Origin: Streptomyces sp. ISL-12
GTDB lineage: Bacteria; Actinomycetota; Actinomycetes; Streptomycetales; Streptomycetaceae
DNA: 64,000 nucleotides
Assembly: GCF_018614415.1 (NCBI RefSeq)
Contig: NZ_JAGGOO010000011.1
Coordinates: 1 to 64,000, forward strand
Reading direction: 5' to 3'
Of the stretch, positions 10,502-36,183 are shown piece by piece. Within the stretch, counting starts at the first letter, position 1; every line of letters begins with the position of its first letter. A model generated the notes under the pieces. It saw nothing but the letters and a program-made list of their open reading frames with translations. It did no database searches and was not told the DNA's origin. The translations under genes and the position numbers were made by a program.

Positions 10502-10718
10502 GGAGCACCTCCCGAGGGGCGGGGTCTCTCCATGATGCGCTGCCGGAAGGCCGTATGGGAGCGGTACGTCCGGGCTGGACGGAAAAAGACCGAGAAGACG
10601 GACGGCGTTCCTGGTGCTCGGCCGGCCGCCACGTGGACGACAGACGCGCACAGCTCAACGCTCGCCCCTTTCCCCAGCCCAGAACACGCCTGCCCGCGCT
10701 CCGCGACCCTCGCGGAGG

Positions 10719-14358: not shown

Positions 14359-14775
14359 ATGACCACACCCGTCCCGCCCCCGAACGCCTTCATCGAAGTC
14401 GAGCGCCTGGTCGTCGAGATCCTGGAGGACGACCCCGCCCTGGCCACCGCGCTCGTCGCGGTCGAACCACCCGCCGGCTTCGACGGCACGGCCGCAGCCG
14501 TGCTGGTCAACCGGCGCGGCGGCGCCTGGGTCGGCGAACTGCACGTCGACGAGCCGCTGATCGAGCTGGAGGTGTACGGGCCGGACAAGGCCACCGCGCA
14601 CACCCTGGCCAACGCGGGCCGACGCGCGCTGCTGGCCGCCGCGGGCCGCACCTTCGGCACGAACGCCGTCACCGACGTCGTCGAACAGGACGGCCCGCGC
14701 TGGATGCCCGACTACCTGTACGCCGCGGCCAACCGCTACGTGTGCGTACTGAAGGTCGCGGTCGACGTCTACTGA
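14359..14775 (+). CDS. tail terminator/completion-like protein
   Basis: A 138-residue protein with the size, fold pattern and position of siphophage tail terminators: N-terminal helix (A-F-I-E-V-E-R-L-V-V-E-I-L), then beta strands (L-I-E-L-E-V-Y-G), a helix (A-H-T-L-A-N-A-G-R-R-A-L-L-A-A-A) and final strands. It directly precedes the major tail protein, the normal phage order. In a phage the terminator caps the tail tube for head joining; in a headless particle it would cap the tube end. Confidence 0.75.
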   Translation: MTTPVPPPNAFIEVERLVVEILEDDPALATALVAVEPPAGFDGTAAAVLVNRRGGAWVGELHVDEPLIELEVYGPDKATAHTLANAGRRALLAAAGRTFGTNAVTDVVEQDGPRWMPDYLYAAANRYVCVLKVAVDVY

Positions 14776-14814
14776 CCACCCCGCGCCCCGCCCCCGCGAG
14801 GCGCCCCACCAGCC

Positions 14815-14844
14815 CGAAGGCCCCGTCACCCGGCGGGGCCTTCG
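14815..14844 (+). terminator. hairpin before major tail protein gene
   Basis: An 11-base perfect stem CGAAGGCCCCG / CGGGGCCTTCG with an 8-base loop, 39 bases after the stop of the terminator gene. It has no long T-run, so it may also act as an mRNA processing or stability element. Confidence 0.65.
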
Positions 14845-14933
14845 TCGTGTCCGGGCGCCGTCCCGCGCGACCGGACACACCCCCGTATCACCTCTCACCC
14901 ATCACCCATCACCCATCACCAAGGAGTCCGAGC

Positions 14934-15545
14934 ATGGCAGGCACCAACACCTCCGAAATCCGTATCGCCGGCGTAGGCCGCCTCTTCATCGCCGACGCCG
15001 GGACGGCCATCCCGGAGACGTTCACCAGCACCGACACCGCCGGCGACTGGGGCACCGACTGGCAGGACCTCGGCTACACCTCCGGCGACGGCGTCACCTT
15101 CAGCAAGAAGGACAAGCTGGAGCCGGTCGACGTCTGGCAGGCCATCAGCCCGGTGCACTTCGTCTACTCCGACCGGGACCTGACGCTGAAGTTCTCGCTG
15201 CTCCAGTTCAACGAGGAGACGCTGCCGTTCTTCATGGGCGGCGGCAGCGTCGCCTCAGCGGGCGGCACCACCTCCGCGGGCGTCTACAAGTACAACATCG
15301 CGGACCGTCCGTACGCCGACGCCCGCGCCCTCGGCCTGGAGTTCACCGACCGGTCGGACAGCACGGCGGTGACGTACCGCCTCGGCATTCCGCGCGGTCA
15401 GGTCACCGCGGCCGACGACATCAAGCTGGCCCGCAAGGCCCCGGCGCAGCTCGGTATCACCTTCACCGCCATGGCCGCCCCGGACGGTTCGCCGCTGGCC
15501 AGCTTCGTGATGAAGGACGGCGCGTACGCCGCCTCGGCGGCCTGA
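14934..15545 (+). CDS. major tail tube protein
   Basis: A 203-residue phage major tail protein that polymerises into the tube of non-contractile tails. It has the typical alternating beta-strand pattern (I-R-I-A-G-V-G-R-L-F-I-A-D), the W-Q-D-L-G-Y-T-S-G-D-G-V segment near residue 45 and a late R-x-x-x-x-F-T-A region. Strong AAGGAG at 14921 and ATG at 14934. Flanked on both sides by perfect hairpins, consistent with independent mRNA dosage for the most abundant tail protein. Confidence 0.85.
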   Translation: MAGTNTSEIRIAGVGRLFIADAGTAIPETFTSTDTAGDWGTDWQDLGYTSGDGVTFSKKDKLEPVDVWQAISPVHFVYSDRDLTLKFSLLQFNEETLPFFMGGGSVASAGGTTSAGVYKYNIADRPYADARALGLEFTDRSDSTAVTYRLGIPRGQVTAADDIKLARKAPAQLGITFTAMAAPDGSPLASFVMKDGAYAASAA

Positions 15546-15552
15546 TCCACCG

Positions 15553-15584
15553 AGGGGCGGGGCGGCCGACACCGCCCCGCCCCT
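15553..15584 (+). terminator. hairpin after major tail protein gene
   Basis: A 13-base perfect stem AGGGGCGGGGCGG / CCGCCCCGCCCCT with a 6-base loop, 8 bases past the stop codon. It is followed by CTCTCTCC rather than T-runs, so it is probably a partial terminator or 3' stabiliser. Confidence 0.7.
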
Positions 15585-15633
15585 CTCTCCCCCTCTCTCC
15601 CCCTCTCACCCCCTCACTGACGAAGGAGCCTCC

Positions 15634-15924
15634 GTGTCCCGTTTCGATGTCAACGCGGCCCGCGCCCAGCGCCTCGAAGCCCTCGGCCGTACCTGGTCGT
15701 TCGAGCTCGACGGCGAGAGCTTCACCCTGCCCACGGAACTGTCCCGCGCGACCGCGAAGGCGCTGCGCAAGCTCGACGACAACGACGTGGACGGCCTGCT
15801 CCGCCTGCTCATGGGCGAGCAGCAGTTCGCCCGCTTCGAGCAGTACGAGGTCACCATGCAGGACATCGCCGCCATCCTGGAGGCCTACGGCAAGGAGACC
15901 GGGCTCGGCCTGGGGGAAGGCTGA
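15634..15924 (+). CDS. tail assembly chaperone, short form (gpG-like)
   Basis: A 96-residue protein (GTG start, AAGGAG at 15623). It reads R-T-W-S-F-E-L-D-G-E-S-F-T-L-P, then helical L-R-K-L-D-D-N-D-V-D-G-L-L-R-L-L and E-V-T-M-Q-D-I-A-A-I-L-E-A-Y. Its place between major tail protein and tape measure, with a second overlapping frame, is that of lambda gpG and relatives, which coat the tape measure during assembly. The stop TGA at 15922 lies 4 bases past a slippery sequence. Confidence 0.85.
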   Translation: MSRFDVNAARAQRLEALGRTWSFELDGESFTLPTELSRATAKALRKLDDNDVDGLLRLLMGEQQFARFEQYEVTMQDIAAILEAYGKETGLGLGEG

Positions 15925-16382
15925 GCCTCGTCGGGTTCGTCGACGAACACGCCGAGGCTCTCGAAGCGGACCTGCTCCGGCACTACGGGGTGGACCTGCT
16001 CGACTGGCACCGCGAACGCCTCTCCAGCCGGCGGCTCGCGGTGCTCATCAAGCACCTGCCGCGGGACAGCGCCCTCAACCGAGACCTGCACGGCGAGGCC
16101 GCTGACTGGTCGGTGACGGACCACCTGCTGGCCGCCGCCGTCGACCACCTCGCGGCGGCCAACTGGATGTTCGCCTCCGTCAACTCGGAGGAGGGCGACC
16201 AGCCGGAGCCACCGGTTCCGGTGCCGCGTCCGGGAGACGGGGCACAGGACGCGGATGCGGACGGGGAGGGGGACGGGGACGGCAACGCCGGCCCGGCCAC
16301 GGACACTCAGGCGGCGGGGACCGCGGAGGGAGCCGATCCCCAGGCTCCCTCCCCCGCCGAGCTGGCCCGGTTCTTCGCCTGA
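15634..16382 (+). CDS. tail assembly chaperone, -1 frameshift product (gpGT-like)
   Basis: A predicted 249-residue fusion. The first 95 codons are those of the short form. After a -1 slip at 15912–15918 reading continues from codon 15918 as R-L-S-L-V-G-F-V-D-E-H-A-E-A-L-E-A-D and LLRHYGVDLLDWHRERLSSR, then VLIKHLPRDSALNRDL and S-V-T-D-H-L-L-A-A-A-V-D-H-L-A-A-A-N-W. The W-H-R-E-R-L-S, H-L-P-x-D-S-A and D-H-L-L-A…A-N-W segments are characteristic of actinophage GT extensions. The open -1 frame starts before the gpG stop and has no good ribosome-binding site of its own, which supports frameshift expression. The C-terminal ~55 residues are acidic and low-complexity. Confidence 0.8.
15912..15918 (+). 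other. -1 ribosomal frameshift slippery site
   Basis: The heptamer G-GGG-GAA in the gpG reading frame (codons CTG-GGG-GAA-GGC-TGA). A -1 slip places the ribosome in the long downstream frame just before the TGA. The position near the end of gpG matches siphophage G/GT genes. Confidence 0.75.
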
Positions 16383-16389
16383 CCCGGGC

Positions 16390-17322
16390 TCAGCGGGGGT
16401 CGGGCGCCTCCGGCGGTACGCCGCGGCGCCGGCCGTCCGCCCGTCCCTCCAGGTCGTCGGCGAGGGCCCGGGCCCGCTTCGACAGCCGCCGGGAGTCGTC
16501 GGTACCGGCCGCGTCCGCCGCGACCTGCCGCCCGCTCGCCGGGTCGTCCGCACGGCGTCCCCTGTCCCGCCCGGCGGTTCCCGGATCGCCGGGCAGGTCC
16601 AGCGGGGGCACGCTCGGGCGGCCGTTGCGCCGGACCACCGGCCGATGCTCGGCGGGCGCCGGCCGCTTCTCCCGCACCTCACGTGCGGAGAGGAGCACGT
16701 CGGGCGAGGGCACGACGGTCGGACTCCCGGGTCCGTCCCGCCCCTCGTGCTCGTCCCGGTCCCGTTCCCTCCGCGGCTCCGGATCCGGCGAAGGCAGGGA
16801 CGGCGCAGTCGCCTTGGGTTCCGGCGCCGGCTTCGACACCGGTTGAACGGCACCCCGTTCCGCGCGCGTCATCTCGGCCGGTGCGCGCAGCAGAGGAACG
16901 TACGGAAGCTGGATGACGTCGCCGCCCGGACCGTCCTCGGTCCGCCGGGCGCGGTGGGGCCGGCGGCCGGTACGGGCGTCCGCCTGGCCCTGGAGATAGG
17001 CGGCGGTGATCCGTTCCTCGTAGGCGCGGCGGATCGCCGGGAACTGCTCGGCGACGACATCGGACCAGCCGGCGCTGTAGGCGGCCGTCTCCCGGCGGTC
17101 CAGCTCGGTGCGCGGCAGGGTGAGGAGCTCGCCGGGGTCGTAGCCGAGGCGCAGGACGAGTTCGCAGACGCGGGCTATGAGATGAGGAAGATCGGAGAAC
17201 TGTTCCAGCCAGTCGACCTCATGATCATTCCGCGCGTTGCTCGCGACGCCGTCCACCCCGCTGGCCTTGCCCTCACTCCGAGTCTCCCCACGCCCCCCAG
17301 CGTGCGGATGGCCGCCTGTCAC
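16390..17322 (-). CDS. antisense-oriented protein of unknown function in tail cluster
   Basis: A 310-residue protein on the opposite strand, between the chaperones and the tape-measure genes. Residues ~35–125 are helical and ordered (DWLEQFSDLPHLIARVCELV; AAYSAGWSDVVAEQFPAIRR; EERITAAYLQGQADAR). The remaining ~180 residues are highly charged, proline/arginine-rich and probably disordered. It shares the A-Y-x-A-G-W-S-D motif with the small proteins at 17633 and 13067. Its stop at 16390 is only 8 bases from the GT stop, so the two genes converge. Function unknown; a cluster-specific regulator or adaptor is possible. Confidence 0.6.
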   Translation of the reverse strand: MTGGHPHAGGRGETRSEGKASGVDGVASNARNDHEVDWLEQFSDLPHLIARVCELVLRLGYDPGELLTLPRTELDRRETAAYSAGWSDVVAEQFPAIRRAYEERITAAYLQGQADARTGRRPHRARRTEDGPGGDVIQLPYVPLLRAPAEMTRAERGAVQPVSKPAPEPKATAPSLPSPDPEPRRERDRDEHEGRDGPGSPTVVPSPDVLLSAREVREKRPAPAEHRPVVRRNGRPSVPPLDLPGDPGTAGRDRGRRADDPASGRQVAADAAGTDDSRRLSKRARALADDLEGRADGRRRGVPPEAPDPR

Positions 17323-17632
17323 CGTCCACCGTCGCCTGACGAGCCCTCACACTCGCCGACGGAAGAGACGGTTCATACGTTCCCTTACCCGACAGACGAA
17401 CGGCCGGATCCTACTCGACGCACCCAGCACGAGAGACGGCGCATCCCGCAACACCGCAGGTCCGACGCACCGAATCACGCAAAGACCGGGCCAATCACGG
17501 AACGGAACCACCGCATTACTCGTACACTCGTTCGATCCGACTCGCCGGCGCTTCGACCGTCCCGTACGACTCGATCGCCTCGGCGGGACGGCCGCACCAC
17601 AGCCCAGCGGACAGACCGGAAAGCAGGCCGAC
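17323..17632. promoter_or_regulatory. divergent intergenic region
   Basis: 310 bases between the antisense gene and the small gene at 17633. It must carry divergent promoters. I see no further gene and no clear copy of the 11338/14106 motif. Confidence 0.4.
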
Positions 17633-17833
17633 ATGGCGACTGGCACCAGCAACTCCCCGCACCAGCCGACCGACTCCTACGCCCGCCTCGCCCACCTCCT
17701 GCGCACCCCGGCCCCTGACGGCGAGACCCTGGTCGACCGGGTGTACGAGGAGCTGCTCGTCCGGGAGTCCCGCGCTTACGCGGCGGGCTGGTCGGACGCG
17801 CTCTCGGGAGCTCGCCGGGCGTCCCGGCCGTAG
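17633..17833 (+). CDS. small protein with A-Y-A-A-G-W-S-D motif
   Basis: A 66-residue protein. Predicted helices are S-Y-A-R-L-A-H-L-L-R-T and T-L-V-D-R-V-Y-E-E-L-L-V-R-E-S-R-A-Y-A-A-G-W-S-D-A-L. The last block is nearly the same as in the opposing gene's product (A-A-Y-S-A-G-W-S-D-V-V) and in the 13067 protein. The two genes are divergent and may share a partner. Function unknown. Confidence 0.55.
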   Translation: MATGTSNSPHQPTDSYARLAHLLRTPAPDGETLVDRVYEELLVRESRAYAAGWSDALSGARRASRP

Positions 17834-18559
17834 CCGCCGGCTTGCCCGCTCCCCACCCGCGGCACAGTGACTCCGCGAGTGCACGGTGCGTCGATCGGCG
17901 GTACCCGGACAGTCGCAGGACCGCGGCACCCGGGCCGACCGCGCACGCGGCCCTGATCCGCGCCTGACGACCAGCACGGCCATGTTTCCGGTCCTTCCGG
18001 ACCGGTCTGTCACCTGCCACTCCCGAGGCGGGCCACCAGGGCGAAGACTCCGAGTCTTGCTTTACCTCGCGCGCCGGCGAACGACGCAACAGGCCGCCGT
18101 AGCGGCCGACGCGTCAGGCCGGCGCACCAGTGAGGCAGAGCGGCGCCCTCGCGCCGCTCTGCATGAGCCCGCCAACGCCGAGCAGCAGAACAAGACAGCG
18201 AGCCGTCCGAGGCTCCAGTACCGGTGCCAAGGCCCGGCCGTCCGGACGACTGCCGGACGGAACACGTGTGGATCTCACGGCGGCACCATGCAACGCTGTT
18301 GCCCCGTCGCGCTGTTGCCCCGTCGCGCAGTTGATTCGCCGGCGGCGACCGAATGGGCGAGCGAGGGAGCCACGAGCAATGACCACCCAGGTATAGCCGA
18401 CAGGCGCGGAAGCGCGGCGAAGTGGAGTCCGGTCCTGACCACGGACCGACGGTGAACTGCTCGCCTTTCGCCTGAAAACGGCAGAAGACGCGGGCCCAGG
18501 GCGCCGACGGACTCACTCAGAAACGGCACTACAGCGCTGAAGCAGCGGTCGAACACAGA
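17834..18559. other. 726-base stretch without a convincing gene
   Basis: No frame has both plausible codon use and a ribosome-binding site. It contains a perfect stem-loop at 18135–18162 (GCAGAGCGGCGC, loop CCTC, GCGCCGCTCTGC), and a 16-base direct repeat (GCTGTTGCCCCGTCGC) in tandem at about 18294–18325. It may be a decayed gene or an untranslated regulatory RNA region. Confidence 0.5.
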
Positions 18560-18712
18560 TCACAACAGCCAGAACAAGGTCATCAGCCCCAGGCAAGCAA
18601 CCGCCACCCCACTCCATCTCGCAACCCCACCAGGATTGGGCGTGTACTCTGGATCTTTTCTCCCCGAATTCCAGATGGCATAGGCACACGTCGGGGGTCG
18701 CTCAGTATCCAT
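18560..18712 (-). CDS. 50-residue membrane protein
   Basis: An ATG at 18712 opens a 50-codon frame: M-D-T-E-R-P-P-T-C-A-Y-A-I-W-N-S-G-R-K-D-P, then a C-terminal membrane helix (SGVAVACLGLMTLFWLL). Its middle and end resemble the adjacent upstream gene's product (A-F-A-M-W-D-S-G-R-R-D-S…L-A-F-V-G-L-T-L-W-L-L), so the two look like tandem relatives. GAGG lies 7 bases upstream, and there is a 9-base gap to the upstream gene. Function unknown. Confidence 0.5.
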   Translation of the reverse strand: MDTERPPTCAYAIWNSGRKDPEYTPNPGGVARWSGVAVACLGLMTLFWLL

Positions 18713-18721
18713 CTCCCTGCC

Positions 18722-18922
18722 TCACGCACCTCGCATCGACAGCAGCCACAGAGTGAGCCCTACGAACGCCAAACCGGCGCCAACATCGAATGCCACGAGT
18801 TTGGGCCTCGGTACTCCATTGGAGTCCCTCCGGCCCGAGTCCCACATCGCGAAAGCAAAGAAGAAGAATACGCACGCAACCCCCAAAGCCCCCACGGCCA
18901 TGAAGAAATACCAAATTGCCAC
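18722..18922 (-). CDS. small two-helix membrane protein
   Basis: A 66-residue protein with two hydrophobic helices (IWYFFMAVGALGVACVFFFF and VGAGLAFVGLTLWLL), separated by a polar loop A-M-W-D-S-G-R-R-D-S-N-G-V-P-R-P-K. GTG at 18922 with AAAGGGG 6 bases upstream is the best start; a longer frame begins at 18937. The local base composition is clearly less GC-rich than its neighbours, a sign of separate origin. It lies opposite to the tail genes, like a phage moron. An immunity or membrane-modifying role is possible but unsupported. Confidence 0.6.
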   Translation of the reverse strand: MAIWYFFMAVGALGVACVFFFFAFAMWDSGRRDSNGVPRPKLVAFDVGAGLAFVGLTLWLLSMRGA

Positions 18923-19080
18923 GCCCACCCCTTTCACCAGTCGTGAACATTGCCGATGTTACCGAAAGATCGAGACGCAAAGCAAGAGCACACTCTTCAC
19001 GTCATTAGTCAGCTATGATCCGTTTTGAAGGCTTTTATCACACGCTCGAGATTGCTTGACCCCCGGAAAGGGAGCTACTC

Positions 19081-19839
19081 GTGGGACAGCACACCACTGA
19101 CGAGGTCTACGAAAAGGTGGTCGACGTCGAGGGGAAGCTCGACACTCACCACAAGTCCTCCGTTACCACGTCACATTTCGACACCAAGGTCAAGGACCTT
19201 GAGGAAGCCATAAAGAAAGGGCCGGAAAAGGCAGATCCTCAGAACTGGAAAGATCTCGTCAAGGAGATGTCTCCAGTCAAGGAGTTCATCGCCGCCACCA
19301 AGGGTGGCGACATGATATCTACATTTATTCTCACTGCGACTGCCGTTGCCGCTGGCGTCGGAATCATCGTCGGTCTCGCGGCAGCATTCAAAAAACTGAC
19401 TTTGGCCTGGACGGGGCGGGAGCGGCAGGCCTTCGCTTTCGGTGCCCCTAGGCCGGAATCTGACCGTCAGCGGCAGTACATCGGCCGCCTTCCAGACGGC
19501 CAGGTAAGGGCGAACGGTAGGCCGAGAAGGTGGGGCTTGAGGCCAGAGGATGCGGCCACCGCCAACGTCACCGCTGGCGCCGCAGCCCAGCCGGCCGCCC
19601 TCCCCTCGGAAGAGCGCATCACCGCCGTCACGGACGCGATGCGCGAACTCAACTCTCAGATCGGCACCTACCGCGAAAAGGTCCGCGGACTCGCCACCCC
19701 TCGCGCCATGCGCCAAATGGCCTCCGCCGCCAAGAAGCTGGAGAGCGCGGCGAAGAAGCACCAGAACATCAGTGGGCTCGCCAACTCGATCGGTGATCTC
19801 AACCGTGAAATGCGTGAACTGGCCGCGACCGCGGGCTGA
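19081..19839 (+). CDS. membrane-spanning protein upstream of tape measure
   Basis: A 252-residue protein, GTG start after AAAGGGAG. N-terminal helical region (~1–75), one or two membrane helices at about 80–105 (MISTFILTATAVAAGVGIIV then G-L-A-A-A-F), a variable linker, and a C-terminal helical part (LNSQIGTYREKVRGLATPRA…MASAAKKLESAAKKHQNIS). It sits 21 bases before the tape-measure gene and is probably co-transcribed. I do not recognise the family; a tail-tip or membrane-penetration role would fit its position. Confidence 0.65.
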   Translation: MGQHTTDEVYEKVVDVEGKLDTHHKSSVTTSHFDTKVKDLEEAIKKGPEKADPQNWKDLVKEMSPVKEFIAATKGGDMISTFILTATAVAAGVGIIVGLAAAFKKLTLAWTGRERQAFAFGAPRPESDRQRQYIGRLPDGQVRANGRPRRWGLRPEDAATANVTAGAAAQPAALPSEERITAVTDAMRELNSQIGTYREKVRGLATPRAMRQMASAAKKLESAAKKHQNISGLANSIGDLNREMRELAATAG

Positions 19840-19860
19840 CCACCGTCCAGGAGAAAACTC

Positions 19861-22640: not shown

Positions 22641-22655
22641 AGGTGACGGCCCCTC

Positions 22656-23603
22656 ATGGCCACAACCGTCCTCAGCCCCACCGCGTCCACCACCCCCGAC
22701 GACACCCCCGGCTCCCTCATCACCCTCGACGGCCAGCTCCAGTGGGGCTCCCTCCTCATGGGCACCGGCACCCCCTACCCCGTCGACCGCGCCGGCATCA
22801 CCGGCTGGGACGACCTCCCGGAGCTGGACCTCGGCGATGTCCTCCGCCCCGACCAGCACGGCGCCTGGCCCGGCGACCGCTGGGCCCAGCCCCGCCTGGT
22901 CGGCGCCACCGTCTGGCTCGCCCCGCCGGCCGGCACCGACCCCCTCGCCACCACCACGGCGTTCCGCGCCGCCACCGGCCCCGACGGCCAGGAACGCTGG
23001 CTGGCGGTCCGGCTGCTCGGCGAGACCCTGGCCGTGCGCGCCCGGGTCAGCCGCCGGGTCGTTCCGCAGGACCGCTCGTACGCCACCGCGGGCTTCGCCA
23101 AGGTCAGCCTCCAGTGGACCGCGACCGACCCGCGCCGCTACGCCCCCGCGCTGCACGAGGCGCTCACCGGGCTGCCGGTCGCGGAACCGGGCCTGGTCTG
23201 GGAGGACGCGGCCGGCTCCGGACTGTCCTGGCCGCTGGACTGGGGCGGTGCCGGGGCCGCCGGTTCGATCGCCGCGGTCAACGCGGGCGGCGCCTCGGTC
23301 CGTCCGGTCGTCGAGTTCCGCGGGCCCGTGCAGCGGCCCTCGCTGACCCGGCTCTCCGACGGCCGCCAGCTCCGGTACGACCTGGCGCTCGGCCCCGGCG
23401 ACCTCCTCACCGTCGACACCGAGGCCGGCACGGTCCTGCTCAACGGCACCGCCTCCCGTATCTACACGGCCACCCCCGACTCGTCCCCCGAGCAGCTGTT
23501 CACGCTCGAACCCGGCACCACCGACCTGGCGTTCCGCTCCGACGACGTCACCCCGTCCGCCGCCGCCTCGGTCACCGTCCGCTGGCGCGACGCCCACTGG
23601 TGA
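22656..23603 (+). CDS. distal tail (Dit-like) protein
   Basis: A 315-residue protein of the phage-tail family that forms the ring at the tail tip. The N-terminal part (about 1–165) shows the mixed beta pattern of Dit domains with a central F-A-K-V-S-L-Q-W-T-A-T-D-P-R-R-Y segment. That segment is the typical junction to the C-terminal galectin-like domain (V-V-E-F-R-G-P-V-Q-R-P and later strands). Its position straight after the tape measure is standard. Confidence 0.75.
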   Translation: MATTVLSPTASTTPDDTPGSLITLDGQLQWGSLLMGTGTPYPVDRAGITGWDDLPELDLGDVLRPDQHGAWPGDRWAQPRLVGATVWLAPPAGTDPLATTTAFRAATGPDGQERWLAVRLLGETLAVRARVSRRVVPQDRSYATAGFAKVSLQWTATDPRRYAPALHEALTGLPVAEPGLVWEDAAGSGLSWPLDWGGAGAAGSIAAVNAGGASVRPVVEFRGPVQRPSLTRLSDGRQLRYDLALGPGDLLTVDTEAGTVLLNGTASRIYTATPDSSPEQLFTLEPGTTDLAFRSDDVTPSAAASVTVRWRDAHW

Positions 23604-23652
23604 TCCGACCCGCGCCCCACCCAAAACCCATGAACAACGCGAAAGGAAACCC

Positions 23653-24858
23653 ATGCCCCTGCGCACCGCATGGCTCGTCAACCGCACCGACGCCGAGAAC
23701 GGCCAGTCCCGCGCCGACACCCGGCTCGCCCCGCTCGGCGCCGTCACCCCGGTCAGCGGACTGGCCGGCCGCAGCGGACTGATCCCGGGCTCGCCGGACG
23801 GCAAGTCGCTGGCCTCGGCGTTCTACGTGTTCAGCTCGACCGCCGGGATGACCGCGACGATCGCGCCGGGACGGGCCGTCGTCCAGGGCTCGGAGACCGC
23901 CGGCGCGTACCCGGTCGTCCTCACCGACTACACCAGCGTCACCTTCGCCGACGGCGACGCCAACAACGACCGTACGGACCTGGTCGTCCTGCGGATCTAC
24001 GACGCGCAGGCCGACAACTCCGGCCGCACCGAGGCGGTCCTGGAGGTCGTCCAGGGACCCACCGACGGTTCCCGCGCCCTTCCGCGGGTCCCGGACGCCT
24101 CCCTGCCGCTGGCGAGCGTGCTGGTCCGGGCGGGCTCCTCGGTCGGCGCCGGCGGTATCGACTGGGCCACCGCCGTCGACGACCTGCGCACCACCACCGT
24201 CGGCGTGGGCGGCATCCTGCCGCTGTACGGCAACACCGCCGAGGCGGGCGCCTACCCGGGCCAGTACCGGGACGTCAGCTCCACGCTCCAGCGGTGGAAC
24301 GGCGACGCCTGGGTGGACTACCCGGCCCAGCTCGGCGGCATCGCCCCGACCGGGCGGATCGCCACCGGCTCGTACGTCGGCCAGTACCGGGACAACAACG
24401 GCCGGCTGGAGCGCTGGAGCGGCACCGCCTGGGTGCTGGCGGTGCCCAGCCCGGTGTTCGCGTACAACAACGACGGCGGCTACTGCAAGACGACCACCTG
24501 GTCGGAGGCGCTGACCGGGACCACGGGGCCGACGGTCACCGCGACCTTCACCGCGCCGATCTCCGGGAGCGTCCTGGTCACCGTCGGGTTCCAGGGCCAG
24601 CCGTCGGTGGAGGGCGGCTGGGGCCGGATGTCCGCCAACATCCGCAAGGGCGGGGTTCTCGTCACCGGCCTCGGTGCCGACGAGACCCGGTCGGCCATCG
24701 ACACCAACCGCGGCAACCAGTCGGTGACGACCACCTTCCCGGTCACCGGGCTCACCGCGGGCGCGACGTACACGGCCGTCTCGGCGTACTCGTCCAACGC
24801 GACGACCAACAACCACTGGTTCGACAACCGGTTCGTCCGCGTCGACCCGATGCTCTGA
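23653..24858 (+). CDS. tail-tip/fibre protein with duplicated module
   Basis: A 401-residue protein. The first ~180 residues resemble the upper baseplate or fibre-anchor proteins of actinophages (V-F-S-S-T-A-G-M-T-A-T-I-A-P-G-R-A-V-V-Q-G, D-R-T-D-L-V-V-L-R-I-Y-D). Two repeats follow: GAYPGQYRDVSSTLQRWNGD and GSYVGQYRDNNGRLERWSGT. A C-terminal beta-rich domain (~260–401) ends with A-T-T-N-N-H-W-F-D-N-R-F-V-R-V-D-P. The last domain is a candidate carbohydrate- or receptor-binding module. Confidence 0.65.
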   Translation: MPLRTAWLVNRTDAENGQSRADTRLAPLGAVTPVSGLAGRSGLIPGSPDGKSLASAFYVFSSTAGMTATIAPGRAVVQGSETAGAYPVVLTDYTSVTFADGDANNDRTDLVVLRIYDAQADNSGRTEAVLEVVQGPTDGSRALPRVPDASLPLASVLVRAGSSVGAGGIDWATAVDDLRTTTVGVGGILPLYGNTAEAGAYPGQYRDVSSTLQRWNGDAWVDYPAQLGGIAPTGRIATGSYVGQYRDNNGRLERWSGTAWVLAVPSPVFAYNNDGGYCKTTTWSEALTGTTGPTVTATFTAPISGSVLVTVGFQGQPSVEGGWGRMSANIRKGGVLVTGLGADETRSAIDTNRGNQSVTTTFPVTGLTAGATYTAVSAYSSNATTNNHWFDNRFVRVDPML

Positions 24859-24868
24859 GGAGCGCCGC

Positions 24869-26017
24869 GTGACGAGTTCCCCCGGAAGTTCTCCCCGTAG
24901 TTCCCCCATGACCGCCTACACCCCGCTCACCCCGGTCTACCGAGCCGTCTTCTGCGACCTGCGCACCGATCAGGTGATCGACGTGCTGCCGCTGACGGAC
25001 ACCAAGTTCGACGACTACATCGGCAAGTCCGGCTCGCTGTCGGCCACCGTCCCGCTGCCGAACGCCGCGCTGGCCCGCCGGGCCCGCGCCGCGCTGGTGC
25101 CCGGCCGGACCGCGGTGTGGCTGGAGCGGGACGGTGACATCTGGTGGGGCGGGGTGCTGTGGACCTGCACCCCGTCCAGCGACGAACGCGGCCGGATGCG
25201 GGCCGCGTTCCAGGCCGGCACCTTCGACTCCTACCTCGACCACCGCATCCTCTCCGCTCCGCTGTCCTACACCGCCCTTGACCAGTTCGAGATCGCACGG
25301 GAGCTGGTGGCCCACGCCCAGGACCAGCCGGGCGGCGACATCGGCATCCAGCTCGGGCACGAGATGTCCGGGGTGGCGCGGGACGTCTCCTACTCGTATG
25401 CATCCCTCAGCCGGATCCGCGAACTCCTCGATTCGCTGGCCCAGCTGGCGGACGGGTTCGAGTGGCGGGTGCACTGCTACCGGGACCCCGAGGGCCGCCG
25501 GGCCAAGCGGCTCCAGCTCGGGCACCCGAGGATCACCGCGAGCGCCTCGGACATCGTCCTGGACCACCCGGGCCAGGTCATCACCTACAGCCTGCCGGCC
25601 GACTCCACCGTGCAGGCCGACGTGTGGGTGGCACGCGGTGACTCGCCCAACAGCGACCAGTCGGAGGAGTCGCAGCCGCTCACCGTGTCCGTCGAGGCCC
25701 CCGAGGACCTGGCGGAGGGCTGGCCCCGGCTGGAGTCCACCTCGGACCACAGCGGGGTCACCGACGAGGCGACGCTGCGTTCGCTGGCCGAGGCGCAGCT
25801 CGCCGAGCAGCGGTTGCCCGAGGTCATCCCGGAGATCACGGTCCGGCTCGACGGGCGGATCACCCCGGCGCTGCTCGGCGCCGGCGTCCGGCTGCGGCTG
25901 CGCGACCTGTGGCACCAGGACCCGCGGGACGAGCGGTACCGCGTCGTCGGCATCGCCGTGGAGCCGCCGCAGCGCGGCAAGTCCGAGACGGCCACCCTCT
26001 ACCTGGAAGGCGTGTGA
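24869..26017 (+). CDS. tail hub protein, ReqiPepy6 Gp37-like
   Basis: A 382-residue protein of the tail-associated/baseplate hub class. Key segments are Y-R-A-V-F-C-D-L-R-T-D-Q-V-I-D-V-L-P-L, W-L-E-R-D-G-D-I-W-W-G-G-V-L-W, D-S-Y-L-D-H-R, and a late R-x-R-L-R-D-L-W-H-Q-D-P…Y-R-V-V-G-I-A-V-E-P-P. These are typical of Gp37-like proteins that follow Dit in actinobacterial siphophages. GTG at 24869 is preceded by GAGGAG; an ATG at 24908 is an alternative. Confidence 0.7.
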   Translation: MTSSPGSSPRSSPMTAYTPLTPVYRAVFCDLRTDQVIDVLPLTDTKFDDYIGKSGSLSATVPLPNAALARRARAALVPGRTAVWLERDGDIWWGGVLWTCTPSSDERGRMRAAFQAGTFDSYLDHRILSAPLSYTALDQFEIARELVAHAQDQPGGDIGIQLGHEMSGVARDVSYSYASLSRIRELLDSLAQLADGFEWRVHCYRDPEGRRAKRLQLGHPRITASASDIVLDHPGQVITYSLPADSTVQADVWVARGDSPNSDQSEESQPLTVSVEAPEDLAEGWPRLESTSDHSGVTDEATLRSLAEAQLAEQRLPEVIPEITVRLDGRITPALLGAGVRLRLRDLWHQDPRDERYRVVGIAVEPPQRGKSETATLYLEGV

Positions 26018-26020
26018 TCC

Positions 26021-26755
26021 GTGGCGACCATCCCGACCGACCTCCTCGACCGTATCCGGACCATCGAGCGCCGCATCCGCGAGCTGATGGCGTCGGCCAA
26101 CAGCAGCCCGCCGATGAACCAGGTCGGCAGCGGTGACATCGTCGTCGGTGACCAGGGCCGCATCCGGGCCCGGACCTCTCTCGGCGACGATCTGCTCCTC
26201 GTCGGCCGGGTCGAGCCGGACCGGGACACCGACGCCCGGCAGTACCAGCAGGGACTGGAACTGCGCCGCGACGACGGTTCGATGGCCCTGTCGCTGATCA
26301 CCGCCGACCCGGTGAACAGCCCCGTCCAGCAGCTGCGGGTGCTCGACCACCAGGGCAACACGCTGCTCGCCACCGACGCGGTCCACGGCGGGCTGGCCCG
26401 CCCCTACCTGGCCTTCCCGCTGCCCGTCCCGGTCGACACCGCTCGCTGGGAGTCGACCACCGCCACCGACTGGACCACGCTCTACGCCGGTCCGGGCATC
26501 GCCCAGCACCCGCGCGTCCAGTGCGAGGTCGCCGTCTCCGGCAGCGTCGGCGCCGCCGTACGGCTGTTGGTCGACGGCATCCCGGTGGCCGCCGAGCAGA
26601 CCGTCACCGACGCCTCGACGCGGTACGCCACCTTCACCGGGAACACCGCTGCCGCCTTCGGCGACCCGGTCACCTTCGAGATCCAGGCCAGGGTCGCGGC
26701 GGCCGGCGACACCGTCGCCTGCGTACCGCGGGCGCTGTACGGCATCCAGTCCTGA
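26021..26755 (+). CDS. tail-tip protein of unknown detail
   Basis: A 244-residue protein, GTG start 3 bases after the hub gene. N-terminal helix (L-L-D-R-I-R-T-I-E-R-R-I-R-E-L-M) suggests trimerisation. Next is a glycine-rich beta region (G-S-G-D-I-V-V-G-D-Q-G-R-I-R-A-R), then a beta-sandwich-like C-terminus (V-Q-C-E-V-A-V-S-G-S-V-G-A-A-V-R-L-L-V-D-G-I-P-V). Probably a fibre or baseplate component. Confidence 0.6.
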   Translation: MATIPTDLLDRIRTIERRIRELMASANSSPPMNQVGSGDIVVGDQGRIRARTSLGDDLLLVGRVEPDRDTDARQYQQGLELRRDDGSMALSLITADPVNSPVQQLRVLDHQGNTLLATDAVHGGLARPYLAFPLPVPVDTARWESTTATDWTTLYAGPGIAQHPRVQCEVAVSGSVGAAVRLLVDGIPVAAEQTVTDASTRYATFTGNTAAAFGDPVTFEIQARVAAAGDTVACVPRALYGIQS

Positions 26756-26784
26756 CCCCCTCCCCGAGAAGCAACGGAGTCCCC

Positions 26785-28233
26785 GTGCTGCCCGAATCCA
26801 TCCCCACCGTCCACCTCACCGCCCAGTACCTCGGCCTCGACGGCCGCCCCCTCGGCGGCACCGTCGAGTTCGCGCCGCCGTCCCTGCTCACCCACTCCGA
26901 CGCCGACGTGTTCGTCGGTGGTCCGACGACCGCGGCCCTGGACAGCGAGGGCCGCCTCGACGTGACGCTGCCCGCGACCGACGCCGACGGCTGGAACCCG
27001 CTGGCCTGGGCGTACACGGTCACCGAACGCCTCAGCGGCCTGTCCAGCAGCCGCACCTACCGCATCGCCCTGGCCCAGTCGGTGCCCGAGGTGGACCTCG
27101 CCGACCTGGCGCCCGCCGACCCGGCCGGTCCCCAGTACGTGACCGTGCCCGGCCCGCCGGGACCGCAGGGCGAGCCGGGTCCGCAGGGCCCCGCCGGTCC
27201 GGTCCGCTCGGTCAACGGCCACACCGAGGCCGACATCATCCTGACCGCCTCCGAGGTCGGCGCCCTCGCCACCTCGGCGGCCGGGCAGGCGAGCGGCGTC
27301 GCCCAGCTCGACGCCACCGGCAAGGTGCCGCTCGCCCAGCTGCCCGACGGCACCGGTGACGGCGTCACCTCGGTCAACGGCCTGACCGGCGCGGTCACCC
27401 TGGCCGCCGCCGACCTCGGGGCGCTCACCCCGGCCGCGGCCGACGCCCGGTACCTGGCGATCGACGGCGCGCCCGTGCTCTCCGTCAACGGCCAGACCGG
27501 CGCGGTCACGCTGACCGCCTCCGGTCTCGGCGCGGTCCCCGCCGACCAGGCCGTGCTGCTCACCGGCGACCAGACCGTCGCGGGCGCCAAGACCTTCGCC
27601 ACCGTCCCCGCCGTCTCCGCCGACCCGGCCACCGACAACCAGCTGGTGCGCCGGTCGTACGTCGACACGCGGGTGCCCTCGGGCATGTGGACGCCGTCGG
27701 CGCTGGGCTTCAAGGCGTGGGCGTTCGACCCGGCGGCGTCCTCCCCGTCCACCGCCCAGTACTGCATCAACGGCAACGTGTACCTCGTCGGCGTGCCCCT
27801 GACCACGGCCGGGACCATCACCAACGTCTGCTTCTTCGTGGCCGGTTACGTCGGCACCGGTCTCGCCGCCACCTCCTTCGCCGGGCTCTACGACAGCGCG
27901 GGCAAGAGGGTCGGCGTCACCGGCGCGCTGAACACGCTGATCACCGCGACCGAGGGCACCACGTTCGTCCTGAAGCTGACCACCGCCTACACCGCCGCGG
28001 CCGGCAACTACTGGGTGGCGCTGCTGATCAACGGCCCGGACCCGCGGACCAACGGCCCCGGCTTCCTGGTCGGGGCGAGCATGGGCAGCTACCCGGGCGG
28101 CAGCGCCCGGATGCCCGGCGCCTTCGTCCGGCACGGCCGCCTGCCCACCACCGGCCTGACCGCACTGCCCACTTCGTTCACCCCGTCCACGATCGTGGCC
28201 GACTCCAACGCGATCTGGGCCGCGGTCTCCTGA
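26785..28233 (+). CDS. tail fibre with collagen-like and repeat modules
   Basis: A 482-residue putative receptor-binding fibre, GTG start at 26785. An N-terminal attachment domain (~1–115) is followed by a short collagen-like run (GPPGPQGEPGPQGPAGP). Three copies follow of the fibre-shaft repeat V-N-G-x-T-G/E-A-V/D-x-x-L-T/A-A-x-x-L/V-G-A, with an L-T-G-D-Q-T-V-A-G-A-K-T-F repeat. The C-terminal head (~300–482) is rich in G-N-Y-W-V-A-L-L-I-N-G-P type strands. These modules are typical of siphophage fibres, and the head should set target range. Confidence 0.8.
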   Translation: MLPESIPTVHLTAQYLGLDGRPLGGTVEFAPPSLLTHSDADVFVGGPTTAALDSEGRLDVTLPATDADGWNPLAWAYTVTERLSGLSSSRTYRIALAQSVPEVDLADLAPADPAGPQYVTVPGPPGPQGEPGPQGPAGPVRSVNGHTEADIILTASEVGALATSAAGQASGVAQLDATGKVPLAQLPDGTGDGVTSVNGLTGAVTLAAADLGALTPAAADARYLAIDGAPVLSVNGQTGAVTLTASGLGAVPADQAVLLTGDQTVAGAKTFATVPAVSADPATDNQLVRRSYVDTRVPSGMWTPSALGFKAWAFDPAASSPSTAQYCINGNVYLVGVPLTTAGTITNVCFFVAGYVGTGLAATSFAGLYDSAGKRVGVTGALNTLITATEGTTFVLKLTTAYTAAAGNYWVALLINGPDPRTNGPGFLVGASMGSYPGGSARMPGAFVRHGRLPTTGLTALPTSFTPSTIVADSNAIWAAVS

Positions 28234-28254
28234 CCTGTCCCGACCCTTTTCCCG

Positions 28255-28285
28255 CAGGCCGGCACGGACCTCCCGTGCCGGCCTG
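28255..28285 (+). terminator. hairpin between fibre and lysis genes
   Basis: A 13-base perfect stem CAGGCCGGCACGG / CCGTGCCGGCCTG, loop ACCTC, followed by TTCC. It may limit read-through into the amidase genes. Confidence 0.75.
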
Positions 28286-28313
28286 TTCCTCACTCACCGC
28301 AAGGAGGCCCACC

Positions 28314-29177
28314 ATGGCCACCCCCCTGACCGCCGACACCCTCGTCACCGCGCTGACCGCCGAGGGCGTCACCGTCGTCGAACACGGCGACTGGCGCACC
28401 CACAACCGCAACAGCGTCGGAACCTGGGGCCCCGTCAACGGCGTGATGGTGCATCACACCGTCACCTCCGGCACCACCGCTTCCGTCGACCTCTGCTACG
28501 ACGGCACCACCGACCTGCCCGGTCCGCTCTGCCACGGCGTGATCGACAAGGACGGCACGGTGTACCTGGTCGGCAACGGCCGCGCCAACCACGCCGGACT
28601 GGGCGACACCGACGTCCTGACCGCCGTGATCGCCGAGACCGCGCTGCCCGCCCCCGACAGCGACGACGTCGACGGCAACACCCGCTTCTACGGCTTCGAG
28701 TGCGTCAACCTCGGCGACGGCTCCGACCCGTGGCCCGAGGCCCAGCTGGAGGCGATCGCCCGGGTCTGCGCCGCGATCTGCCGCGCCCACGGCTGGAACG
28801 CCGCCTCCGTCATCGGCCACCTGGAGTGGACGTTCCGCAAGATCGACCCCAGGGGTTTCTCCATGGCCTCGATGCGCACCCGGGTCGCCGCCCTGCTGGC
28901 CACCGCGCCGGGCGGCTCCGCCGCGCACTACCAGCCGTTCCCCGGCGACGCCTTCTTCAAGTCCGCCCCGAACTCCACCATCGTCGCCGCGATGGGCGGC
29001 CGGCTCGTCGCCGAGGGCTGCTCGGCGTACACCACCGGCCCCGGCCCGCAGTGGAGCGAGGCCGACCGCGCCTCGTACGCCCTGTGGCAGCAGAAGCTCG
29101 GCTACACCGGCGCCGACGCCGACGGCTGGCCGGGCGCCACCTCGTGGAACGCCCTGAAGGTCCCCTACACCGCCTGA
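28314..29177 (+). CDS. N-acetylmuramoyl-L-alanine amidase 1
   Basis: A 287-residue endolysin-type amidase that cuts the MurNAc–L-Ala bond. The Amidase_2 (T7 lysozyme-like) fold is at about 20–195. Zinc ligands are H47 or H48 (M-V-H-H-T-V-T), H169 (V-I-G-H-L-E-W) and D178; K176 in F-R-K-I-D-P matches the catalytic lysine. The C-terminal part (205–287; G-Y-T-G-A-D-A-D-G-W-P-G-A-T-S-W) resembles a peptidoglycan-binding module of streptomycete phage lysins. No signal peptide. AAGGAGG precedes ATG 28314. Confidence 0.9.
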   Translation: MATPLTADTLVTALTAEGVTVVEHGDWRTHNRNSVGTWGPVNGVMVHHTVTSGTTASVDLCYDGTTDLPGPLCHGVIDKDGTVYLVGNGRANHAGLGDTDVLTAVIAETALPAPDSDDVDGNTRFYGFECVNLGDGSDPWPEAQLEAIARVCAAICRAHGWNAASVIGHLEWTFRKIDPRGFSMASMRTRVAALLATAPGGSAAHYQPFPGDAFFKSAPNSTIVAAMGGRLVAEGCSAYTTGPGPQWSEADRASYALWQQKLGYTGADADGWPGATSWNALKVPYTA

Positions 29178-29200
29178 TCCGCTCCCCGGAGGACCACCGC

Positions 29201-30073
29201 ATGTCCACACCCCTCACCGCCACCGCCCTCGTCGCCGCCCTCAAGGCCGAGGGCGTCTCCGTCGTCGAACACGCCGGCTGGCGCACCCACAACCGCAACA
29301 GCAAGGGCGCCTGGGGCCCGGTCAACGGCGTGATGATCCACCACACCGTCACCTCCGGCACCACAGCCACCGTCAACCTCTGCTACAACGGCCGCTCCGA
29401 CCTCCCCGGCCCGCTCTGCCACGGCGTCATCGCCAAGGACGGCACGGTCCACCTGGTCGGCAACGGCCGCGCCAACCACGCCGGCAGCGGCGACGCCGAC
29501 GTCCTGGCCGCCGTCGTCGCCGAGCGCGCGACCCTGCCCGCCCCGAACCAGCAGAACACGGACGGCAACACCCGTTTCTACGGCTTCGAGTGCGTCAACC
29601 TCGGCGACGGCGAGGACCCCTGGCCGGAGGCCCAGCTGGACGCCATCGCCCGCACCGCGGCGGCCATCTGCCGCGCCCACGGCTGGAGCGCGGCCTCGGT
29701 GATCGGCCACAAGGAGTGGACGAACACCAAGATCGACCCGCGCGGCTTCACCATGCCGTCCCTGCGCACCCGCGTCGCGACACTGCTCGGCAAGAAGCCC
29801 ACGCCCACCACCCCGACCTACCAGCCCTTCCCGGGCGCCGCCTGGTTCAAGGACAGGCCGAAGTCACCGATCGTCACGGCGATGGGCAAGCGCCTGGTCG
29901 CGGCCGGCTGCTCGGCGTACTCCACCGGCCCCGGCCCGCAGTGGACCGACGCCGACCGCAACAGCTACGCGAAGTGGCAGCGCAAGCTCGGCTACACCGG
30001 CACCGACGCCGACGGCTGGCCGGGCGCCACCTCCTGGGCCGCGCTGAGGGTGCCGTACACCAGCGGGACGTGA
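29201..30073 (+). CDS. N-acetylmuramoyl-L-alanine amidase 2
   Basis: A 290-residue close paralogue of the preceding amidase, 23 bases downstream, with the same domain order and the same catalytic residues (M-I-H-H-T-V-T; V-I-G-H-K-E-W; K-I-D-P-R-G). Differences concentrate in the linker near residue 200 and around residues 105–120. A clear tandem duplication. Either both lyse the producer or one is particle-associated. Confidence 0.9.
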   Translation: MSTPLTATALVAALKAEGVSVVEHAGWRTHNRNSKGAWGPVNGVMIHHTVTSGTTATVNLCYNGRSDLPGPLCHGVIAKDGTVHLVGNGRANHAGSGDADVLAAVVAERATLPAPNQQNTDGNTRFYGFECVNLGDGEDPWPEAQLDAIARTAAAICRAHGWSAASVIGHKEWTNTKIDPRGFTMPSLRTRVATLLGKKPTPTTPTYQPFPGAAWFKDRPKSPIVTAMGKRLVAAGCSAYSTGPGPQWTDADRNSYAKWQRKLGYTGTDADGWPGATSWAALRVPYTSGT

Positions 30074-30078
30074 CGCCC

Positions 30079-30333
30079 GTGTCCGACGCCACCAGACGCA
30101 CCCTGCGCACCGTCGTCCAGACCGCCGTGGCCCTGTGCGTCCTGCTGCCGTCGCTGGTCGACACGGCGGGCCTGCCCCGCAGTCTGCCCTGGGTCGCCGG
30201 GGCCCTGGCCGTGTCCGGCGCGGTGACCCGGGCGATGGCCCTGCCGGCCGTGCAGTCCCGGCTCCCCGCCTGGCTGCGCACGGAAGCACCCGAACCGAAC
30301 CCGAACGACAAGACCGAGAAGAACACGACATGA
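30079..30333 (+). CDS. holin-like membrane protein
   Basis: An 84-residue protein with two hydrophobic stretches (TAVALCVLLPSLVDTAG and WVAGALAVSGAVTRAMAL) and a charged C-terminus (P-N-P-N-D-K-T-E-K-N-T-T). Size, topology and position after the amidases fit an actinophage holin, which would open the membrane for amidase release. GTG start; overlaps the next gene (ATGA). Confidence 0.7.
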   Translation: MSDATRRTLRTVVQTAVALCVLLPSLVDTAGLPRSLPWVAGALAVSGAVTRAMALPAVQSRLPAWLRTEAPEPNPNDKTEKNTT

Positions 30334-30581
30334 GCGACGATCAAGCCACCGTGGCCGTCGAACTGGAACGCCTGCGCGGCACGGTGGAAGCCGGCTTCGC
30401 CCGGGCCGACGGCTCCCTCGCGCTGCTGGTCCAGCGCAGCGACCAGACCGACAAGCAACTCGCCGACCACGAACAACGCCTGGACGCCCTGGAACGCTCC
30501 CGCTGGCCACTGGCGAGCATCGGCGTCCTGGCCGCCCTGGCCACCACGGTGGTCACCACCCTGCAACTGACCGCCCGCTGA
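30330..30581 (+). CDS. coiled-coil, tail-anchored membrane protein (second holin-like)
   Basis: An 83-residue protein. A long coiled coil (about 8–58: V-E-L-E-R-L-R-G-T-V-E-A-G-F-A-R-A-D, Q-L-A-D-H-E-Q-R-L-D-A-L-E) ends in one C-terminal membrane helix (LASIGVLAALATTVVTTLQL). This architecture is frequent next to holins in actinophage lysis cassettes. Co-translated with the holin-like gene. Last gene of the tail cluster. Confidence 0.7.
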   Translation: MSDDQATVAVELERLRGTVEAGFARADGSLALLVQRSDQTDKQLADHEQRLDALERSRWPLASIGVLAALATTVVTTLQLTAR

Positions 30582-32047: not shown

Positions 32048-32049
32048 AA

Positions 32050-32286: not shown

Positions 32287-36183
<3,897 letters not shown>

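Follow-up and report, generated by a model that had tools for sequence, protein, structure and literature searches.

A conserved head-less siphophage tail cluster of Streptomyces with a polymorphic slot: a candidate F-type tailocin with putative payload and immunity genes

The 64-kb window analyzed here (Streptomyces sp. ISL-12, contig NZ_JAGGOO010000011.1, positions 1 to 64,000) carries a cluster of non-contractile phage tail genes between rpsL and rpoC. We show that this cluster recurs, usually at one site between two essential operons, across many Streptomyces species. Between its tail chaperone and its first tape measure gene (TMP1) lies a slot that holds a polymorphic payload candidate (p252 in the window) and, divergent from it, a gene for a small membrane protein (imm71), which we call the partner. 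On balance, the gene content makes it probable that the cluster is a domesticated, head-less siphophage tail acting as an F-type tailocin with payload-immunity pairs. The payload/membrane-partner slot may be its killing part.

Results

The cluster is widespread in Streptomyces. A profile of the tail tube protein, searched against a species collection, gave 98 relatives, of which 80 were retained (loci L071-L150), 78 of them from Streptomyces, with strains of S. griseus and S. exfoliatus among the carriers. Among 392 sampled Streptomyces genomes, the tube was matched in 130 at E<=0.001 and in 82 at E<=4e-59; at this stricter level, none of the loci fetched and tested matched TerL, portal, MuF, or capsid. 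Sampling of the family (200 genomes, the genus included) gave 31 matches at E<=1e-20 in 7 of 17 genera; these are tube matches, not loci. Three of 2.9 million viral contigs matched the profile, one of which (L151, 48% identity) bears this cluster. The tube has no close relative in 50,697 phage records (best 29% identity) and no PDB profile match.

The insertion site is shared. rpsL lies 5' of the cluster in 56 of the 80 named loci. Both rpsL and rpoC surround it in 10 of the 17 first-fetched genomes, rpoC only in two (contig start), and neither within the stretch in four, one contig being too short; both genes also flank it in genomes G262 and G327. Twenty cluster-less genomes were searched for rpsL and 16 were fetched. 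In these 16, which have no strong tube match, rpsL and rpoC are 450-1603 bp apart in 10 and 2973-9523 bp apart in six. The gene order common to the loci is repressor, WhiB-like, znf257, MerR-like, terminator, tube, chaperones, tape measures, and tip. The regulator block (MerR-like, znf257, WhiB-like, and repressor), where present, is inverted relative to the window in L072-L086 and some later loci. The similarity of tube, TMP1, and distal tail protein (Dit) tracks that of the neighboring EF-G (Spearman 0.41, 0.41, and 0.40; 0/500 permutations each). Thus, descent appears to be at least partly vertical.

The tail genes are largely intact. Away from contig ends, whole reading frames were found for the tube in 90/90 loci, TrP in 89/89, TMP1 in 87/88, the second tape measure (TMP2) in 87/87, Dit in 82/82, the 401-aa tip protein in 80/82, and the hub in 45/46; the chaperone T part fell under the length threshold in 9/91. 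Across five close pairs, tail-operon genes gave 50 dN/dS values, the window's p252 included, of which 41 were <=0.4 (maximum 0.72, TMP2). Decayed copies do occur: the cluster of G166 is truncated at its left end, TMP1 is short in L073, the hub is short in L094, two 401-aa proteins are short, and the tube gene of G224 is split over two frames. Nine of the 82 strong tube matches carry a flagged stop, and one of these, G202, has a whole 189-aa tube open reading frame (ORF).

Head genes were not detected with the tail. TerL, portal, MuF, and capsid queries from phages Darolandstone, Kromp, and Galactica, which remote head families could escape, found no match in the window, the rest of its contig, L071-L153, or the 17 stretches of the first set. 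The same held for six more loci (G262, G327, G096, G140, G228, and G128) and for G068 (L217). The head queries matched the prophage control G036, and the prophage contig G168 gave scaffold and connector matches. Three of four genomes with a Kromp-like tube gave terminase, portal, or protease matches; G371 gave connector-type matches only, in the stretch fetched. Kromp gp13 bears the annotation head-to-tail connector and had matches in 12 records, cluster loci among them at 40-44 bits; we take gp13 to be a tail terminator because it stands directly before the tube in G343, G016, and G202. Elsewhere in the window's own genome, PF03354, PF04860 (portal), and PF05065 (capsid) had no match, and PF03237 gave one terminase-like match on another contig (G000:C144). 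The HTH protein at 12556-12774 weakly matches two terminase-small-subunit families (E 2e-4 and 6e-3), below its MerR-like match. The single integrase query used was unmatched in the window and the rest of its contig, and no integrase or replication module was recognized among the cluster proteins scanned. The combination of head and packaging genes with a tail that marks a gene transfer agent was not found with these queries.

No sheath or spike family is among the PHROG or Pfam matches of the cluster, and TMP1 has one low-ranked baseplate-hub PHROG amid many tape-measure matches. A contractile injection system or R-type tailocin was ruled out, as there is no sheath-type family and the matched tail families are siphophage-type.

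The slot in front of the tape measure is polymorphic. It spans 0.55-6.9 kb between chaperone and TMP1, and the three phages read (Darolandstone, Kromp, and Galactica) have no gene there. Removal of five duplicates from 94 slots left 89, three of them without a payload candidate. In the other 86, a plus-strand ORF ends 13-106 nt 5' of TMP1; this ORF is p252 in the window. Payloads and partners were analyzed in 81 loci (score >=12, >100 bp before the payload). At TMP1 scores >=0.95 (9 pairs), the median normalized similarity is 0.24 for payloads vs 0.98 for the chaperone. At 0.90-0.95 (51 pairs), it is 0.17 (75% of payload scores <0.3) vs 0.95. Tip proteins in pairs with a TMP1 score >=0.8 have medians of 0.73-0.87, compared with 0.07-0.24 for payloads. 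Between groups, tip identity is decoupled from backbone identity; where backbones are alike, the tip genes tested vary little and the payload most, the fiber at 26785-28233 being compared in fetched stretches only.

The payload C-terminus is more widely shared. Matches to a p252 profile in other groups mostly span positions 141-252, and G259/G023 and similar pairs have a common payload C-terminus with dissimilar N-terminal parts. Over all payload pairs, the C-terminal quarter is just slightly more alike than the N-terminal quarter. p252 and imm71 have the lowest GC content at third codon positions (GC3) of the cluster (0.74 and 0.69), and both have a dN/dS of about 0.22, which fits a moved cassette. 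Neither phage records nor viral contigs gave a match to p252.

Payloads covary with membrane partners. Of the 81 loci, 41 have a minus-strand ORF with two or more hydrophobic segments and five have such an ORF on the plus strand, compared with resampled means of 0.17 and 0. DUF3592-like proteins of at least 80 aa, called at E<1e-5 with an iterative profile that was seeded from the slots, occupy 46 of 89 slots (59 minus, 5 plus, at most five per slot), some overlapping the payload ORF. With pieces <80 aa included, the counts are 64 minus and 5 plus, at most seven per slot. For DUF3592-like genes at TMP1 >=0.8, partner and payload similarity correlate with a Spearman coefficient of 0.57 (85 pairs). 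For all partners, in 45 loci at TMP1 >=0.75 (144 pairs), the coefficient is 0.49; the permuted mean is 0.087 and 0/2000 permutations reached the observed value. Similarity in TMP1 is no predictor of similarity in DUF3592 (Spearman 0.03).

The window's partner, imm71, is not DUF3592-like. Matches to its family (E<1e-7) occur in six of 89 slots, precisely those whose payload is strongly p252-type (E<=1e-43). The profile was built from four of these loci plus G068, with L081 and L084 outside it; alignments were made without L084 for p252 (frameshifted) and without one G068 copy for imm71 (stop). G068, which came from genome searches, has p252 with two divergent imm71 copies, one of them with a stop. 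The 6.9-kb slot of L081 holds four DUF3592-like and two imm71-like genes beside one payload and resembles an immunity array.

Gene content of the window

Genes were called from ORF lists, GC3 plots, and start inspection (Table 1). A complete siphophage tail gene set and a lysis cassette lie at 14359-30581 with open frames (PHROGs and Pfam), and the cluster is wider than this, its conserved regulators starting at 10719.

Table 1. Genes at and around the tail cluster, with positions in the window
Feature	Position	Strand	Evidence
rpsL, left edge of insertion site (str operon)	9277..9648	-	tblastn 99% identity to relatives' gene
tmDUF membrane protein gene, part of empty site rather than cluster	9935..10651	-	between rpsL and rpoC in 6/16 cluster-less genomes
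xre1, XRE-type repressor related to phage immunity repressor	10719..11165	-	phrog_3949 9.5e-20; in 67/83 loci
wbl, WhiB-like regulator	11458..11730	+	PF02467 4.7e-6, above curated cut-off; in 52/83 loci
znf257, conserved Cys-containing protein, role unassigned	11786..12559	+	in 67/83 loci; weak PHROG matches
MerR/HTH_17-like small protein	12556..12774	+	phrog_2474 6e-16; Pfam HTH_17 below cut-off
xre2, second XRE-type repressor	13529..13990	+	HTH_3 6.5e-10; 33% identity to Darolandstone repressor
Tail terminator	14359..14775	+	phrog_123 1.1e-18
Tail tube	14934..15545	+	phrog_117 1e-38; Pfam PF25681 6e-58
Tail assembly chaperone G	15634..15924	+	phrog_10551 5e-27
Tail chaperone T part, -1 frame (frameshift inferred)	15990..16382	+	phrog_3656 1e-18; frame open through G
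m310, conserved slot gene, role unassigned	16390..17322	-	50-58% identity in G262, G327, G068
p66, small conserved slot gene	17633..17833	+	in 35/83 loci
Shorter second partner gene copy, probable remnant	18560..18712	-	partner-family profile E 4.6e-8
imm71, candidate immunity protein of 71 aa with two hydrophobic segments; gene divergent from that of payload	18722..18937	-	dN/dS 0.215 vs L071
p252, polymorphic payload candidate, directly 5' of tape measure	19081..19839	+	dN/dS 0.218 vs L071; GC3 0.74 vs TMP1 0.94
Tape measure 1 (TMP1), 396 aa	19861..21051	+	phrog_1535 2e-27
Tape measure 2 (TMP2), tandem, 424 aa	21048..22322	+	phrog_3981 1e-27; in 77/83 loci
Distal tail protein (Dit)	22656..23603	+	phrog_5577 2e-95; Pfam SPP1_Dit 5e-9
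Tail-tip structural protein, 401 aa	23653..24858	+	phrog_3398 2.5e-74 (label 'head and packaging'); Darolandstone gp18 homologue
Tail hub / minor tail protein	24869..26017	+	phrog_1885 8e-96; 54% identity to Streptomyces phage Darolandstone gp19
Conserved tail-tip protein, 244 aa	26021..26755	+	phrog_9849 1e-81, family without assigned function
Tail fiber with collagen-like stretch	26785..28233	+	phrog_14726 9e-135
Endolysin (Amidase_2)	28314..29177	+	PF01510 3e-25
Second endolysin (Amidase_2)	29201..30073	+	PF01510 6e-25
Small protein, possible holin	30079..30333	+	phrog_4316 1e-24 (no function); phrog_443 holin E 0.008, weak; Darolandstone gp23 homologue
Small protein, possible holin partner	30330..30581	+	phrog_5225 3e-27 (no function); Darolandstone gp24 homologue
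rpoC, right edge of insertion site	32287..36183	-	95-97% identity to relatives' gene

The chaperone T part keeps the same frame relative to G in 78 of 80 loci, and a pattern search of the overlap found no canonical XXXYYYZ slippery heptamer. The 401-aa product of 23653-24858 is read as a tail-tip protein because its counterpart, Darolandstone gp18, sits between Dit-like and hub genes. The TMP1 and TMP2 frames share four bases; the two proteins are of similar length and tandem in most loci, and dN/dS is higher for TMP2 in four of five pairs. By the rule of 0.15 nm per tape-measure residue, the predicted tail would measure roughly 60-120 nm. In the slot, m310 had no family match in the Pfam, NCBIfam, and other profile scans made, and by eye it has a short motif, AYxAGWxD, in common with p66. 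ARAGORN calls a tRNA-Arg (ccg) at 23187-23270 within the Dit gene, probably by chance. A gene trio at 30625-32220, 3' of the lysis genes in the window, is found within the payload slot in G068 (L217); these genes are putatively ATPase-like, XRE, and DUF397-like.

A second, different tail cluster is present in the same genome (G000:C5, about 29-42 kb; L064 and L065). It comprises a neck or tail-completion protein, a tube, a 1422-aa tape measure, a hub-like protein, an amidase, and a small lysis gene, and is adjoined by an opposite-strand regulator. There was no head query match in 39 kb and no head family in the ten ORFs scanned.

The cluster carries its own regulators. WhiB-like genes (52/83 loci) and MerR-like genes (67/83) travel with it, and xre1 is 33% identical to the Darolandstone repressor (E 1e-18). 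SOS control through a LexA-type GAACNNNNGTTC site was considered and gave 0 matches in 64 kb; this is weak evidence because about 0.7 matches are expected by chance. Control by bldA was also considered, and no cluster gene contains a TTA codon.

Most of what the initial annotation had proposed from the window was borne out. It had named a tail order of terminator, tube, chaperones, tape measure, distal tail protein, and fibers, which PHROG and Pfam profile searches reproduce, and had seen no terminase, portal, or capsid gene in or near the cluster, in line with the unmatched head queries in window and contig. Its intact frames extend largely across loci, with dN/dS <=0.4 in 41 of 50 comparisons. 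Its exclusion of a contractile injection system agrees with the lack of sheath or spike family matches. The hub that it named is a minor tail protein (phrog_1885); its label 'Gp37-like' is unsupported because 24869-26017 has no Pfam (E<=0.1) or NCBIfam (E<=0.01) match. Its lysis cassette stands for the two Amidase_2 endolysins, and the holin assignment is weak (30079-30333, E 0.008). The comparison across Streptomyces genomes that it proposed shows the locus conserved without head-gene matches in tested relatives. Of the signs that it had listed against a domesticated tail, adjacent head genes were not found and decay in relatives looks uncommon.

Discussion

Recurrence, open frames, dN/dS, the lack of head matches, and the lack of a close tube in phage records all favor the domesticated tail that had been proposed at first. 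That interpretation was incomplete because it overlooked the polymorphic payload/partner slot, perhaps the killing part. The fuller reading, a non-contractile tail weapon with polymorphic protein payloads and cognate membrane immunity, would be the first of its kind, and we judge the case for it to be evenly balanced. Under the same evenly balanced reading, kin recognition in Streptomycetaceae would work through swaps of payload-immunity cassettes at the tape measure and not through changes of the tail fiber.

We envisage the following sequence. Release of the repressors would let tails assemble, with the payload protein riding in the tube alongside the tape measure; lysis of the producer would fall to the amidase and holin-like genes. 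The tip would bind a related actinomycete, and tape measure and payload would be ejected into the target envelope. There the payload, often with a hydrophobic helix in its variable half, might damage the membrane. Kin with a matching membrane protein, expressed independently of the tail operon, would survive. The kill spectrum would be set largely by the payload-immunity pair, not the fiber.

Several observations weigh against pairs of toxin and immunity protein. Particle, killing, toxicity, and immunity are predictions from gene content. Payload variation is not pure exchange, since payloads also become more alike as EF-G does (Spearman 0.35, somewhat below tube, TMP1, and Dit), and just 56% of payload scores are <0.3 in the 9 pairs of the closest TMP1 class. 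No known toxin fold or family reached the cut-off for a payload. Neither NCBIfam nor PADLOC matched a payload, the PADLOC scan as a whole giving weak HTH matches only; below threshold, one payload matched XhlA (E 8e-4) and p252 matched PT-TG (E 0.03). A strongly hydrophobic segment is present in only 43 of 81 payloads. AlphaFold predicts p252 as mostly helical at very low confidence (pLDDT 40) and gave no reliable fold. PDB profile matches of p252 to viral fusion proteins (E 0.03-0.1) were taken as chance coiled-coil likeness. A payload sequence motif tried as a marker of DUF3592-type payloads showed no association (Fisher p 0.25), and a promoter scan of the gap between payload and partner found no promoter-like site.

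The partners add to these points. Both partner profiles derive from the slots themselves: that for DUF3592 was seeded from proteins seen in these very slots, and that for imm71 came from partners spotted beside p252-type payloads. Three of four proteins tested against Pfam DUF3592 match it at E 3e-5 to 2e-3, below the cut-off. Locus pairs in the similarity tests are not independent, and some pairs alike in partner have dissimilar payloads. No imm71 match accompanies the more distant relatives of p252 (E 1e-16 or weaker; L094, L085, L083, and others), and imm71 relatives lie away from tail genes in three genomes (G376, G226, and G059). In 40 of the 81 loci, no minus-strand ORF has two or more hydrophobic segments; of these 40, 13 were called as having a DUF3592-like gene, in some cases on the plus strand or in overlap with the payload, and 27 have neither. 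These 27 are mostly of a S. exfoliatus-like group (L087-L114) whose payloads differ strongly, and the three slots shown from that group leave a partner little space. In the slots of L126 and L130, which have no recognized partner, opposite-strand genes look alike by eye (..FWLD..FWQFF..) and perhaps form another partner family.

The best-surviving alternative, which we consider unlikely, is a plain F-type tailocin whose tail itself opens the membrane, with the tip as its specificity and the slot genes as unrelated accessories that drift or recombine freely. Its tail and lysis cassette are complete, and half of the slots have no clear two-segment partner. The tip also does not simply track tube or tape measure: L073-L086 are 66-87% identical to the window in TMP1 and 52-55% in Dit, and most of L113-L131 reverse that (55-64% and 66-71%). 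Free drift, however, sits poorly with a dN/dS of 0.22 for p252 and with an ORF at the payload place in 86 of 89 slots. Payloads covary with the divergent membrane gene, and where TMP1 is similar (>=0.8), the tip stays alike and the payload does not.

That the tail acts in or on its producer, as a cytoplasmic or developmental cell-death device under the WhiB-like and MerR-like regulators, strikes us as improbable. These regulators accompany the cluster, no LexA-type site was found in the window (against the chance expectation given above), and PMC10066040 describes a Streptomyces contractile system that mediates cell death from the cytoplasm. Yet the two endolysins, the holin-like genes, and the repressors of phage type point to lytic release, and the polymorphic partners point to conflict between strains. 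The missing TTA codons argue weakly in the same direction.

Superinfection control has a slimmer chance still. Here the payload would pair with the tape measure or act in assembly, and the membrane genes would keep out incoming tails or phages. The position of the payload just 5' of the tape measure, its low-confidence helical prediction, and the membrane nature of the partners are consistent with this. Coevolution with the tape measure would be expected, yet TMP1 and DUF3592 similarity are uncorrelated; payload similarity is low even at TMP1 >0.9, and the three phages read have no such gene.

Last, it is very improbable that the cluster is a prophage remnant in decay, or that it represents the tail half of either a gene transfer agent or a helper-dependent element, despite the truncated copy in G166, the few short genes, and the terminase-like gene elsewhere in the genome: decay is rejected because frames are mostly intact and dN/dS is below 1, there are no linked head-gene matches, and PF04860 portal and PF05065 capsid have no match genome-wide.

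The candidate tailocin with payload-immunity pairs shares features with several known systems. As in F-type tailocins (F-pyocins and Listeria monocins), a head-less non-contractile tail operon is joined by regulatory and holin/endolysin lysis modules. The cluster's own features are tandem tape measures, WhiB-like and MerR-like genes, the lack of a LexA-type site in our search, and the polymorphic payload/membrane-partner slot. F-type tailocins are not known to carry toxin-immunity pairs. The monocin layout, as given in a part of PMC6872733, has no excision or replication module, and a passage of a tailocin review (PMC12090994) classes non-contractile tailocins by their tail and places specificity in the tail fiber and resistance in the target's lipopolysaccharide.

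Phage relatives of the tail are recognizable. Darolandstone gp17-24 have the same order as the window (Dit, 401-aa protein, hub, 244-aa protein, fiber, endolysins, and two small genes), the hub is 48-54% identical in Streptomyces phages Darolandstone, Raleigh, and SV1, and the window tube is 29-31% identical to that of Kromp. Unlike the cluster, Darolandstone and Kromp have head/packaging genes, one long tape measure, and no slot gene between chaperone and tape measure; Darolandstone also has an integrase. Phage-tail-like structures of the contractile type (eCIS, SLP) are widespread in the genus according to a section of PMC8910223. Those systems are contractile and the cluster is siphophage-type, both being domesticated and phage-tail-like.

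The slot resembles polymorphic toxin-immunity systems in having an exchangeable candidate effector next to a small membrane partner, which in most cases is encoded on the opposite strand, and in holding several partner copies as well as shortened ones. At gene level, the cluster has the exchanged effector and the adjacent cognate partner by which such systems are recognized, with 27 of 81 loci having no recognized partner. It differs in using a non-contractile phage tail as the presumed carrier, in a payload whose C-terminal part is the more widely shared, and in a toxin that is a candidate. Searches of the open-access literature gave no title or abstract start on a Streptomyces non-contractile tail particle, this locus, or tailocin payload-immunity pairs; an earlier description in subscription papers or preprints is possible.

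The killing mode of F-type tailocins is described as largely unknown in a passage of PMC8910223. This question becomes directly testable with a conserved tail whose payload is exchangeable and comes with a membrane partner to match. If our reading is true, the cluster would offer a non-contractile chassis for protein delivery to actinomycetes, and it would represent a widespread antagonism system in the main antibiotic-producing genus.

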